From assembly GCF_002737755.1 (NCBI RefSeq), contig NZ_PEGH01000018.1, forward strand, positions 62,001 to 126,000: 64,000 nt of DNA, read 5' to 3'. Below are positions 9,987-41,577 of this stretch, piece after piece (positions within the stretch are counted from its first letter, which is position 1; every line of letters begins with the position of its first letter). The notes below the pieces were generated by a model. The model saw only the letters and a program-made list of their open reading frames with translations, ran no database searches and was not told the origin of the DNA. The DNA is from Caulobacter sp. BP25. Its GTDB lineage: Bacteria > Pseudomonadota > Alphaproteobacteria > Caulobacterales > Caulobacteraceae. The position numbers and the translations under genes are program-made.

Positions 9987-10011
9987 TCGTTCCGACCTTA
10001 GAATTTGGAGA

Positions 10012-10042
10012 CGCCCTCGTTCCCTCGGATCGAGGGCGTTTT
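10012..10042 (+). terminator. terminator of the atp operon
   Basis: Stem CGCCCTCG (10012-10019) pairs with CGAGGGCG (10031-10038), followed by TTTTC. It lies 26 bases after the atpC stop. Confidence 0.85.
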
Positions 10043-10180
10043 CATAAGCGCTTTCCCGCCTAGCGCGAAAAAATTACACTTGTGACCTAATCTCCGCGGC
10101 AATCGGTAGCCATAAGGGTTGCGAGGGATCGCTTGTCGGTTTTAATGCCGACCTCTCGTTCAGTTGGGGATATCCAGCCT

Positions 10181-10897
10181 ATGCGCCTCGCGCTCGTCAG
10201 CCTGATCGCTCTCGGCGCGGTCTCGACCGCCGCCGTCGCCCAGGAGCAAACCGCTCCGGCTCCCGCCACGCCCGCGCCGGCTACCGCCGCCGCTCCGGCT
10301 CCGGTCCAAGCCGCCCCGGCCGCTCCGGCTGATCAAGCTGCGCCACCCGTCGCGGCTCCGGCTGAGCAGGCCGCTCCGGCCGCCCCGCCCGCCGAAACCT
10401 ACACCGCGCCGGTGCGCGGCCCCAAGACCACCGATCCCGTGACGCTGAAGCTGCTGGACGTTCTGGACAAGGTCTGTAAGCCGCAGGTCGCCGGCGGCGA
10501 CTTCGCCCAATTGGTCAAGGACTATGGCCTGAAGAAGAAGAAGGAGCAGTGGGTTCTTGACCTCGGCAAGCCCTTCAACATCACGCTGGATAACCCTGGC
10601 TCGAACAAGAACATCTGCACGGTCACCATCGACTACGCGCAGACGCCCGAGCAGGCTCAGGAACTGGCCAATGGCCTGCACGACTGGGCGACCTGGGAGA
10701 ACAGCCCGCAGCTGCGCCTGATCCGCAACGATCAGACCGTTGGCAGCGACTTCCGCCGCTTCACCGTGTCGTGGGACGACAACTGGGCCGGCGGTCGCGC
10801 GGGCCTGGTCTATGTGCGCCTGAAGAAGCTGGACGAGAGCTCGGTCGGCAAGAACTTCGAGCGCGCCCAGATCCTGTACAGCACCAATAGCCGCTGA
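10181..10897 (+). CDS. secreted protein with Ala/Pro-rich linker
   Basis: A 238-residue protein. The ATG at 10181 is chosen because it starts a clean signal peptide (MRLALVSLIALGAVSTAAVAQ). Residues about 22-85 are an Ala/Pro-rich linker. The rest is a globular domain with LLDVLDKVCKPQVAGGDFAQ, NICTVTIDYAQTPEQ and a C-terminal RLKKLDESSVGKNFERAQILY. Two cysteines in the domain could form a periplasmic disulfide. I cannot assign a function. The next transcription unit has its own promoter and riboswitch. Confidence 0.78.
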   Translation: MRLALVSLIALGAVSTAAVAQEQTAPAPATPAPATAAAPAPVQAAPAAPADQAAPPVAAPAEQAAPAAPPAETYTAPVRGPKTTDPVTLKLLDVLDKVCKPQVAGGDFAQLVKDYGLKKKKEQWVLDLGKPFNITLDNPGSNKNICTVTIDYAQTPEQAQELANGLHDWATWENSPQLRLIRNDQTVGSDFRRFTVSWDDNWAGGRAGLVYVRLKKLDESSVGKNFERAQILYSTNSR

Positions 10898-10908
10898 TCG
10901 GGGTCAGG

Positions 10909-10937
10909 TTGCCCCGCCTTCCGGGCGGACCTATCTA
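10909..10937 (+). promoter_or_regulatory. predicted promoter for the riboswitch-sugE unit
   Basis: TTGCCC (10909-10914) and TATCTA (10932-10937) are 17 bases apart. A start about seven bases downstream would begin the transcript at the first riboswitch hairpin. This is inferred from spacing and position only. Confidence 0.45.
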
Positions 10938-10940
10938 GCG

Positions 10941-11007
10941 AAGGCGCGGGGACGACCCCGCGCCTTTTGCTTTTTCGGGGACGACCCCGCCTTTTTCGAA
11001 GAAAGGG
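10941..11007 (+). ncRNA. guanidine-II (mini-ykkC) riboswitch
   Basis: Two successive hairpins carry the same GGGG-ACGA-CCCC cap. P1 is AAGGCGCGGGG/CCCCGCGCCTT (10941-10951 with 10956-10966) and P2 is 10976-10989. Each loop is ACGA, matching the ACGR loops that define guanidine-II RNAs, and the linker is short and U-rich. The ribosome-binding stretch GAAAGGG (11001-11007) is six bases before the sugE GTG. It can pair as AAAGG (11002-11006) with CCTTT (10990-10994), which touches the base of P2, so ligand-stabilised P2 could free the ribosome site. The downstream gene is a guanidinium-exporter homologue, as expected. P1 plus its U-run may also terminate upstream transcription. Confidence 0.88.
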
Positions 11008-11013
11008 CTCGTC

Positions 11014-11334
11014 GTGGCCTGGATTATTCTCCTGATCGCCGGACTGTTCGAGGTGGGCTGGGCCGTGGGTCTGAAGTTCACCGAAGGCTTCACCAAGCCG
11101 ATCCCGATCCTTTTCACCGCCATCAGCCTGGCGCTGTCGATGGCCCTGCTGGGCTGGTCGGTGAAGACTCTGCCTCTTGGGACGGCCTACGCTGTCTGGA
11201 CCGGGGTTGGCGCCGTGGGCACGGCGATCGTCGGCATCCTGCTGTTCAAGGAGCCCGCCACCGCAGCGCGCCTGGCGTGCCTGGGCCTGATCGTGGCCGG
11301 GATCCTGGGGCTGAAGGTGTTCAGTCCGCAGTAG
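11014..11334 (+). CDS. sugE: SMR family guanidinium exporter (SugE/Gdx)
   Basis: A 106-residue four-helix small multidrug resistance protein of the inner membrane. Helix 1 holds the essential glutamate in [17 protein letters not shown] (Glu13 from the GTG start). Helix 3 has [18 protein letters not shown], and helix 4 ends the protein. This subgroup exports guanidinium in exchange for protons. The GTG start at 11014 follows GAAAGGG with a six-base spacer. The guanidine-II riboswitch directly upstream supports the Gdx assignment over a broad drug pump. Confidence 0.93.
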
Positions 11335-11342
11335 AGAGGCGC

Positions 11343-12092
11343 TCAGGCCGCCGCCCGACCCTCGGCGGCGATGAACGCGAGGCACCGATCGGCCACCTGC
11401 TCCCAGCCAGGTTCGCCCGGCAGCCAATGGCTCATCTCGGGGAAGATCTCCACGGCGCCGCCCAGGCGCGCGGCGGTTTGGCGGACGGTCGCTGGCGGAT
11501 GGATCACGTCCTTGCCGCCAGCGATCGCCAGCACGGGACATGCCGGCGCGGCCACGCTGGTCGTCATGAAGGGGTCGAGCCACCAGTTCAACGTCTCCCA
11601 CAGCGCCCGGCCGCTCTCGGCCGTCATGCGGGCGAAGATGGCCTTGCGGACGGGGCGGGGCAGGCGGTCGACGCTGTAGCGGCGCACGACTCCATAGTCC
11701 GGCGCGACGGCTTGCAGCCAGTACGGCCCCAGGGCGTAGAGGCTCATGGCCGAGGCGGCTTCCTCCAGGCTGGCGCCGCTCACGCCCCAGGGCGCTGAGG
11801 GAGCCAGCAGGATCAGTTTGGAGACGCGAGCACGCGTGGCGGCCATCTGAGCGACAAGGCCGCCCATCGAGTGGCCGATGAGAATGGGGGGCGTTTCGCA
11901 GGCTTCGACCAGACGGGCGATCTGCCGAGCGTAGTCGGTCATTGAGACGCCCGTAACGCCGCCCACGCCGTCATGGCCGATCAGATCGGGTGTCAGCACT
12001 GTATAGCCGGCGGCCTCGAACGGCGCGCGGAACACGTCGAAGGTCCAGCCGCCGCAGAAGGCCCCGTGGACCATGATAACCGGTGCGCGCAT
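11343..12092 (-). CDS. alpha/beta hydrolase
   Basis: A 249-residue alpha/beta hydrolase fold protein. The oxyanion-side motif is VHGAFCGGW near residue 8, the nucleophile elbow is GHSMGG near residue 94, an acidic candidate is in IAGGKDVIHPP, and the catalytic histidine is in EMSHWLPGE. No signal peptide is seen, so it is likely cytoplasmic. It converges on sugE with an eight-base gap. The substrate is unknown. Confidence 0.85.
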   Translation of the reverse strand: MRAPVIMVHGAFCGGWTFDVFRAPFEAAGYTVLTPDLIGHDGVGGVTGVSMTDYARQIARLVEACETPPILIGHSMGGLVAQMAATRARVSKLILLAPSAPWGVSGASLEEAASAMSLYALGPYWLQAVAPDYGVVRRYSVDRLPRPVRKAIFARMTAESGRALWETLNWWLDPFMTTSVAAPACPVLAIAGGKDVIHPPATVRQTAARLGGAVEIFPEMSHWLPGEPGWEQVADRCLAFIAAEGRAAA

Positions 12093-12155
12093 GGACGCCC
12101 TTGAACTCGACTAAACCCCGCCGACCAGCTTGGCCGACGGGGCAGAGTACACGGT

Positions 12156-13538
12156 CTACTTCGACTTGGGCGAGGTTTTGGCGGGCGCCTTTGTCGCAGG
12201 CTTCTTGGCGGCTGGGGCCTTGGGCGCGGCGGGCTTCGCAGCGGTCGCCTTGGCGGCGGGAGCCTTCTTGGCGGCGGCGGCTTTGGCGGGAGCCTTCGCC
12301 GTCGCGGGCTTAGCGGCGGTCTTCGGAGCAGCGGCCTTCGGCGCTGCGGTCTTGGCCGGAGCCTTGGTCGCGGCGGGTTTGGCGGCAGGAGCCGGCTTGG
12401 CCGGCGCGGCGGCCTTCGGCTTGGCGGCGGCTTTGGCGGGCGCCGCAGCCTTTGGCGCGGGCGCGGCCTTTGCCTTGGTTGCGGGGGCCTTGGCTGCAGG
12501 GGCCTTGGCCGCAGGCGCCTTCGCAGCCGGCGCCTTGGCTGGCGCGGCGGCCTTCTTCGGCGCGGCGGCTGCCTTCGGCTTCGCGGCCGCCTTCGGCTTG
12601 GCCTCGGCCTTCGGCGCGGCGGTCGCCGCCGGGGCGGGCTTTGGCGCGGGGGGCGGCGCGGGCGTTGGCGCCGGAGCCGGAGCGGGTTCGGCCGCCTTCA
12701 CAGGCGCGGCCGCCGGGGGCGGGGCTTTCGCGGGCGTCGGCGCGGGCGTGGCGGCCAGCGTTTGCTTCTTGCCGCCCAGCCAGGCGATCAGGTCGTCGAG
12801 GATCTTCATCGTGTTTGGCTCATCTATTAGATAGTGGGCGTTGTTGGGGTACTCGCGGAACTCGGCGCCGGCGTACTTCTTGCCGACGAGACGCACGTCC
12901 TCGACGGGTGTCGTGCGATCCAGGGCGCCGCCCATGACCAGCATCGGCGCGGTGACCTTGCTGGCGTCGACATAGGCGGCCTTGTTGGGGTCCTTGGCGG
13001 GATAGGCCAGGTCGGCCAACACCCGTCCGCTGTCATGGACCATGGTGGCGTAAAGAGCGTCGTGACGCTCGGCGGGCACGGCGTTGACCACGCCGAACTT
13101 GAAGCCAGTCTTCCACATCTTGCCGGCCTTGGCCTCGGGCTTGCCGGTAAGGATCAGATTCAGGAAGGTGAAGACCGGAGCCAGCTTGGGCTTACCGCGC
13201 GCATCGGCGGGCGAGGCTGGGGCGAATAGCACGACGGCCGAGGCGTTCCCCGCCTCGGCGATCTTTTGGGCGATCAGCCCGCCCATCGAATGGCCCATCA
13301 CGATCGGCTTCTTGCCGGTCTCTCGGGCGAGCGTCTGGGCGTAGGCGACCATTTCAGCGACGTAGTCGGCCAAGGTCAGGCCGATCAGCCCCGCTCGGGG
13401 GCCATCGACCGTGCGCACCGCCGCCCGGATCGTGGGCGTCTCGACGCGATAGCCCTCGGCGCGTAGGCGAGAGGCCACGGGGCCCCATACGTCGCCGGCG
13501 CAGCCGTAGCCGTGAATCAACAGAACTGTATCCACCAC
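12156..13538 (-). CDS. alpha/beta hydrolase with long Ala/Lys/Pro tail
   Basis: A 460-residue protein. Residues 1 to about 255 are an alpha/beta hydrolase: LLIHGYGCAGDVWGP, nucleophile GHSMGG near residue 97, acidic candidate in MGGALDRTTPVED, histidine in NNAHYLIDE. The remaining 200 residues are a low-complexity Ala/Pro/Lys tail (PAAKAPAAKAPAAK-type repeats) like histone H1-type or PhaF-type tails, which can bind nucleic acid or polymer surfaces. The tail resembles the short N-terminal extension of AtpD in this window. Its function is inferred from composition only. Confidence 0.85.
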   Translation of the reverse strand: MVDTVLLIHGYGCAGDVWGPVASRLRAEGYRVETPTIRAAVRTVDGPRAGLIGLTLADYVAEMVAYAQTLARETGKKPIVMGHSMGGLIAQKIAEAGNASAVVLFAPASPADARGKPKLAPVFTFLNLILTGKPEAKAGKMWKTGFKFGVVNAVPAERHDALYATMVHDSGRVLADLAYPAKDPNKAAYVDASKVTAPMLVMGGALDRTTPVEDVRLVGKKYAGAEFREYPNNAHYLIDEPNTMKILDDLIAWLGGKKQTLAATPAPTPAKAPPPAAAPVKAAEPAPAPAPTPAPPPAPKPAPAATAAPKAEAKPKAAAKPKAAAAPKKAAAPAKAPAAKAPAAKAPAAKAPATKAKAAPAPKAAAPAKAAAKPKAAAPAKPAPAAKPAATKAPAKTAAPKAAAPKTAAKPATAKAPAKAAAAKKAPAAKATAAKPAAPKAPAAKKPATKAPAKTSPKSK

Positions 13539-41267: not shown

Positions 41268-41577
41268 CCTAAATGAGCGAGGGGCCCCGGCGACGATCCG
41301 GGACCCCTCTGGGACGTGGAGGGGCCACGTCCCTACTCCAGGTGGGAACGGCCCGGCGATGGCTCAAATCGCCGAGCCGCTTTCCGCTCCTACCCGAAGC
41401 CCTGAGCGCGGCGCCGGCGCCGCGCGATGTTCGAAGGTCCGGGGGCTGATCTAGCCGATCTGGTCGCGACTCTTGTGTCGGTCGCCGGACTTGAACGCAC
41501 CGTGCCGACGCGAACGGCGCGGGGAAAGTTACAAGCCGGAAAGCTGGATTAAACCTTCGACAGAAAGGTCGGCGGAG
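41268..41577. other. intergenic region with two hairpins
   Basis: Beyond the two hairpins at 41279-41333 I see no gene and no clear motif. It should carry the promoter for the GNAT gene at 41578, whose ribosome site is GGCGGAG. Confidence 0.5.
41279..41333 (+). terminator. tandem hairpins after the POT gene
   Basis: GAGGGGCCCCGG pairs with CCGGGACCCCTC (41279-41309) and GGGACGTGG pairs with CCACGTCCC (41311-41333). There is no T-run, so termination strength is uncertain. Confidence 0.5.

Follow-up and report, generated by a model that had tools for sequence, protein, structure and literature searches.

Two GC-rich hairpins stand just before a small exporter gene of Caulobacter sp. BP25, and this locus raises the question of whether they form a guanidine-sensing RNA and how such an RNA would reach the ribosome site of the gene. 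In the present study, the window, i.e. the whole stretch of 64,000 nucleotides that was analysed, was searched with RNA and protein family models, its leader was folded in silico, and the locus was compared with relatives across the family and the class.

Results

The aptamer and its candidate promoter

The Rfam model RF01068 (Guanidine-II, mini-ykkC) matched the forward strand at 10944-10988 with 51.5 bits over its full length (model positions 1-48), the gathering score, which is the curators' cut-off, being 32 bits (E = 2.9e-7 over the whole window and all 4227 Rfam families). A reading made earlier from the letters alone had proposed a guanidine-II riboswitch here, to be checked with the mini-ykkC model, and the search bears this out. 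It was the sole Rfam match above the gathering score within the 64 kb, and a profile search of the same genome gave no second RF01068 match at E<=0.001. Direct reading of the letters confirmed the identical GGGG-ACGA-CCCC caps that had been described (GGGG 10948-10951, ACGA 10952-10955 and CCCC 10956-10959; GGGG 10977-10980, ACGA 10981-10984 and CCCC 10985-10988), and both hairpins carry the ACGR loop of the guanidine-II class. Their proposed limits, 10941-10966 and 10976-10989, agree with the full arms given in Table 1. The linker is 12 nt when P1 is counted as 10944-10963 and P2 as 10976-10989, which lies inside the 7-40 nt range that excerpts of PMC7544219 give for guanidine-II RNAs. In addition, the RNA lies close upstream of the ribosome site of an SMR/SugE gene, as this class does, and a U-rich stretch directly 3' of P1 makes P1 also terminator-shaped. 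No guanidine-I switch was found in a search of the whole genome, and the Rfam scan of the 64-kb window gave no guanidine-III or -IV match. By sequence the element is an unremarkable guanidine-II switch ahead of its exporter gene. The kind is already known; the Rfam model also matches in Caulobacter vibrioides.

Table 1. Features of the switch locus (window coordinates) and the set of variant loci
Feature	Position	Strand	Basis and remarks
-35-like TTGCCC	10909-10914	+	letters read; TTG kept in relatives
Promoter spacer, 17 nt, with inverted repeat CGCC/GGCG	10915-10931	+	palindromes by eye
-10-like TATCTA	10932-10937	+	letters read; conserved in relatives
Hairpin P1	10940-10967	+	12 pairs, ACGA loop; 8-pair aptamer (model) stem 10944-10963 plus lower stem GAAG/CTTT
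U-rich linker, possible anti-Shine-Dalgarno	10964-10975	+	linker/Shine-Dalgarno duplex -8.1 kcal/mol; pairs with the Shine-Dalgarno if P3 is barred
Hairpin P2	10976-10989	+	5 pairs, ACGA loop
Hairpin P3, CCUUUUU with GAAAGGG, hiding the Shine-Dalgarno	10989-11008	+	predicted fold
Shine-Dalgarno GAAAGGG	11001-11007	+	letters read; AAAGG at 11002-11006
SMR exporter, SugE/Gdx type, 106 aa	11014-11334	+	GTG start at 11014; SugE and Pfam SMR models
Variant loci	L093-L110, L111-L229, L230-L258		relatives and many Alphaproteobacteria; a few chance matches

A candidate promoter of its own, TTGCCC-N17-TATCTA (10909-10937), is supported upstream of P1 by comparison of relatives. A TTG stands 16-17 nt before a TAT, close upstream of P1, in 25 of the 28 parsed genus loci (the exceptions being L021, L030 and L067), a proportion that is not readable as a probability because the loci are related. 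These loci were drawn from the family and genus RF01068 samples, in which L022, L023, L068 and L069 (genus) were not parsed. Mean pairwise identity among the 25 was 82% in the -35, 92.5% in the -10 and 45% in the spacer. A strict sigma-70 scan reported no promoter in 10000-12500, so the support comes from conservation and not from a match to the E. coli consensus; of the promoter that had been proposed, the spacing is conserved and the strict scan gives no match. From the promoter position, the RNA would begin at about 10943-10945. The letters of the spacer inverted repeat differ among species and, by eye, are often still palindromic; the repeat may be a hairpin at the 3' end of the upstream gene.

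The exporter gene and its neighbours

The product of the downstream gene is, by sequence, an SMR protein of the SugE/Gdx type, and guanidinium transport is predicted for it. It scored 137.3 bits with the SugE equivalog model (cut-off 126) and also passed the Pfam SMR model; its best sequence match among solved structures was 6wk5 with 114.5 bits (EmrE 37.5), a PDB chain that we take to be Gdx-Clo. These scores uphold the assignment to the guanidinium class made in the sequence-only reading. No second Pfam SMR match was found in its genome. The gene ends 8 bases from the end of a convergent hydrolase gene (11334-11343), and the scan found no terminator-like site between the two. Upstream lies a forward-strand open reading frame (10133-10897). 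Its 254-aa product begins with an Ala/Pro-rich part and matches neither Pfam nor NCBIfam models, and its last codons look conserved by eye across many Caulobacter loci.

Predicted masking of the Shine-Dalgarno

CCTTT occurs twice before the gene, at 10963-10967 and 10990-10994. The Shine-Dalgarno lies in P3 in the predicted fold of 10940-11016, for which comparison with dinucleotide shuffles gave z = -3.2, and also in that of 10944-11046 (z = -2.2). The mean unpaired probability of AAAGGG was 0.01, and none of 60 spacer shuffles was as low. In 10944-11046 the predicted energies were -43.1 kcal/mol with P3, -40.0 with the linker on the Shine-Dalgarno and -36.0 with the Shine-Dalgarno free of both; once P3 is barred, the linker takes over the pairing. 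Likewise, in the near relatives L001, L003, L004, L005 and L006 none of 60 spacer shuffles masked the site as well, and in L013 about 1 of 60 was as low. We rejected a Shine-Dalgarno-hiding hairpin 3' of P2 as a general trait of the canonical form: mean unpaired probability over 48 canonical loci was 0.36 native and 0.33 shuffled, and the native value fell below the shuffled mean in 21 of them. The 48 came from 63 loci, after L022, L023, L060, L068 and L069 (no parsed start) and L042, L057, L083 and L093-L099 (no two ACGR hairpins) had been left out. The hairpin is thus predicted for the window and its nearest relatives, not family-wide; the CCTTT/AAAGG helix suggested earlier is highly stable in the fold predicted for the window and is confined to near relatives.

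The canonical switch across the family

RF01068 matched at E<=0.001 in 44 of 199 family genomes, 39 of them above the gathering score, and tblastn on the fetched loci placed an SMR gene directly downstream in all 44, about 17-80 nt away. An SMR match at E<=1e-15 was present in 121 of the 199, so the RNA is absent from some SMR genes. Among 14 control genomes the matches included E. coli and C. vibrioides. In two loci (L007, L008) a repeat-like insert (GCGTTTTCTTCACGCGA and similar) lies between P2 and the Shine-Dalgarno, and the gene starts about 80 nt from the switch. One genome (G116, locus L042) has a degenerate canonical switch about 70 bases before its SMR start, with P1 loop GCGA and P2 loop CAGG; the promoter letters are lost and the stems and U-tail retained.

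A variant with a CCACGU loop

In two Caulobacter genomes that lack the canonical RNA, RF01068 matched below the gathering score directly in front of an SMR gene (G142, 20.3 bits; G056, 19.9 bits). These two loci and five others, reached through their SMR gene, have in common GAGG-CCACGU-CCUC, a variable stretch and CCGGG-ACGG-CCCGG; all seven, with their CCACGU loop, had been obtained ahead of the pattern searches. Pattern scans, in which the P1 loop was fixed as CCACGU, found the form in 11 of the 75 genomes scanned for the genus and in 49 of the 348 scanned for the family (46 after dropping the chance-like G019, G150 and G192), and a wider contig collection gave at least 119 stretches with it. 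The matches listed include Sphingopyxis, Sphingomonas, Sphingobium, Brevundimonas, Methylobacterium, Henriciella, Acetobacteraceae and one Zoogloea MAG, and a few among them look like chance, e.g. in Arthrobacter and Actinomadura.

Among the matches listed, 145 of the 160 collected were distinct. A copy was called complete when A-n-G-n-C preceded the P2 stem and G followed it, a context that the patterns did not force; on this basis 135 of the distinct listed copies were complete and 10 incomplete. By tblastn, an SMR gene lay just downstream of 128 of those 135 and of none of the 10. The seven complete copies lacking it precede NuoA (L169, L214), a CBU_0592-family membrane protein (L138, L235), an AtpB-like gene by eye (L103) and reading frames with no assigned family (L161, L168); protein families were tested for L138, L161 and L169 only. 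In both L169 and L214 the variant motif occurs twice at a distance of about 400 bases; one copy precedes an SMR gene and the other nuoA. With the SugE model, the two SMR proteins tested from the variant side reached 123 and 113 bits, slightly below the cut-off of 126, and they are therefore described as SugE-like and not called SugE. Among the 199 family genomes, the canonical form was present in 44, the variant in 22 and both in none, where 4.9 were expected (P 0.003); in the genus subset of 39 genomes the counts were 23 canonical, 8 variant, 0 both and 8 neither. This suggests that the two forms do the same job, with the mutual exclusion inflated by relatedness.

Several observations bear on whether the variant is a structured RNA. 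Three bases ahead of the P2 stem that the patterns left free (A, G and C) were invariant in 126 SMR-linked copies among the matches listed. In an alignment of 41 variant sequences, the second P1 pair was A-U in 33, G-C in 6 and G-U in 2, and the middle helix showed changes on both sides in four of its five pairs, with only 68.5% of cells pairing; P2 never varies and so is uninformative on covariation. The covariation score, 0.134, exceeded all 500 shuffles, and one slid version came near (0.106). Among the matches listed, 64% of 122 distinct linkers fold better than 95% of single-base shuffles. Furthermore, a downstream hairpin using the last GG of P2 is predicted in 106 of 111 leaders among the listed matches; 91 of these 111 were stabler than the swapped-halves mean (-11.6 vs -8.5 kcal/mol), and the Shine-Dalgarno tetramer is predicted to be mostly paired in 62.

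The variant is not filed here as guanidine-II, because it scores under the gathering score in both aligned places and its P1 loop is CCACGU, not ACGR (the P2 loop is ACGG). RF01068 at E<=0.001 matched none of the 22 variant genomes in the 199-genome sample. A covariance model built on variant sequences only (R1) did reach canonical loci of the Brevundimonas type (L080, 33.9 bits; L088, 26.3; L082, 23.7), and L080 aligned as GAGG--ACGA-CCUC with a similar middle hairpin and an identical P2 stem. In the window, L001, L002, L010 and L015, R1 gave nothing at E<=10 on the canonical element. Its best match in the window, 18.7 bits at 41321-41357, was taken as chance. Over 289 genomes of the class it gave 15 matches at E<=0.01, a count that understates the spread of the variant because stricter filters were used. 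Five of them (L260-L264, by eye) have an SMR gene, and at L267 only the context of the start codon is SMR-like. Eight (L266, L268-L274) look like chance by eye. At L265, a guanidine-II-like leader (1501-1548) precedes a PF05232 gene (BTP, chlorhexidine efflux type). P1 loops between the two forms occur at single loci, i.e. CAACGA (L262), CCACGA (L263) and UAACGU (L267), and P2 departs from the variant rule in L263 and L267.

Discussion

We hold it very probable that the window carries a guanidine-II riboswitch that turns on the translation of a guanidinium exporter. The assignment to the class follows from the 51.5-bit match, the SugE/Gdx gene and the SMR gene in 44 of 44 RNA-bearing genomes; guanidine binding, the loop-loop contact and the direction we infer, the ON direction and the loop-loop model being taken from excerpts of PMC5486947, PMC9300104 and PMC9561414. 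Transcription would start from the switch's own promoter at or just before P1. With no guanidine, the Shine-Dalgarno would be paired, mostly in the local P3, the U-rich linker being the alternative partner. Occupation of the ACGA loops by two guanidinium ions would then bring about a loop-loop contact between P1 and P2; the kissing would align both stems, stretch the linker and keep P2 closed, including G10989, and the Shine-Dalgarno would be freed so that the pump is made. In the predicted fold P3 coexists with P1 and P2, and guanidine binding need not expose the Shine-Dalgarno; kissing may open P3, a step with little support since P3 and P2 have only the base G10989 in common. A bound-state helix of GAAGG (10940) with CCUUU (10990) was set aside by reasoning alone, because a collinear kissing complex separates those ends.

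The explanation that competes best, which we regard as unlikely, is that P1 mainly terminates transcripts of the upstream gene, whose stop is at 10897, and that its use by the exporter is incidental. A terminator scan does mark 10940-10967 (four sites in the 2.5 kb scanned, where shuffled sequence would give 1.9), the fold of 10940-10974 has z = -5.3, and L042 keeps the P1 stem and a U-rich tail despite the loss of its ACGR loops and promoter letters. Moreover, ligand might strengthen the terminator-shaped P1 with its tail, which is a point against an ON switch. A terminator, however, could dispense with P2 and with both ACGA loops, which are kept in most loci; the Brevundimonas-type loci (L080, L082, L084-L092) have a short P1 with no U-tail, and RF01068 is matched over its full length. 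A dual role of P1 is possible, in which read-through RNA with GAAG would form the 12-pair hairpin with its U-tail, and RNA from the own promoter, starting near 10944, only the 8-pair aptamer stem.

It is far less probable that ligand-stabilised P2 and the five U at 10992-10996 end transcription as an OFF switch. P2 followed by CCTTTTT does appear as a terminator-like site in the scan, but P2 has only 5 pairs, many relatives have no U-run after it, excerpts of PMC9561414 and PMC12186494 describe the class as translational and ON, and repression of an exporter by its own substrate makes little sense. As for two GC-rich hairpins that are alike by chance, GC-rich genomes do contain many weak sub-threshold RF01068 matches, yet the window element reaches 51.5 bits, the second-best place listed in its own genome only 20.8, and the presence of the RNA in 44 of 199 family genomes, each time before an SMR gene, refutes this idea and leaves it next to no probability.

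The variant branch was an unexpected yield of the comparison with relatives, and 20 of its loci had no relevant match in Rfam 15 (an all-Rfam search gave nothing at E<=1 except four unrelated microRNA matches). We lean slightly towards regarding it as an uncatalogued alphaproteobacterial branch of guanidine-II, with a P1 hexaloop that has two extra bases before ACG. Its anatomy would then be a variable middle hairpin, A-n-G-n followed by the ACGG P2, and a Shine-Dalgarno hairpin whose first pairs are made by the final two G of P2. Because the downstream hairpin uses this GG, P2 and the hairpin compete, which would make a clearer switch than in the window. The variant may use one changed binding site, where pairing of the P1-loop U with the P2-loop A could bring the kissing pairs to three, or may have a shifted ligand. 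No earlier description of it was seen in the literature listed or in the excerpts of PMC8632094 and PMC11109978; it may have been noticed before in PMC5340285 or PMC5558903, two core papers on this class. Where tested, the standard model scores the variant under the cut-off, and counts of guanidine-controlled genes in Alphaproteobacteria may therefore be too low. Furthermore, an altered loop kept across many genera beside the same exporter family would amount to a natural experiment that tells which bases of the loop are needed for guanidine sensing. As for the window itself, an RNA is predicted to control the export of guanidine in Caulobacter sp. BP25, and the locus is a clean comparative case, with promoter, aptamer and Shine-Dalgarno masking within about 100 bases.

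Compared with known systems, the aptamer does not differ from RF01068, having two GC-rich ACGA hairpins and a 12-nt linker just upstream of the Shine-Dalgarno of a SugE/Gdx gene; the extended P1 with its U-tail and the local P3 are features of a Caulobacter subgroup. The exporter resembles the SugE/Gdx proteins, being above the SugE cut-off and close to 6wk5, and its transport function is predicted by sequence. Published masking models agree in outline with the window. According to excerpts of PMC9300104 and PMC9561414, the switches of E. coli sugE and P. aeruginosa have the same hairpins, and the linker or flank is proposed to mask the Shine-Dalgarno and to be pulled off by kissing, whereas in the window the masking is predicted for a separate hairpin immediately 3' of P2. 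In this respect P3 is nearer to the proposal for G. violaceus, in an excerpt of PMC5486947, of a hairpin that overlaps P2 and the ribosome site.
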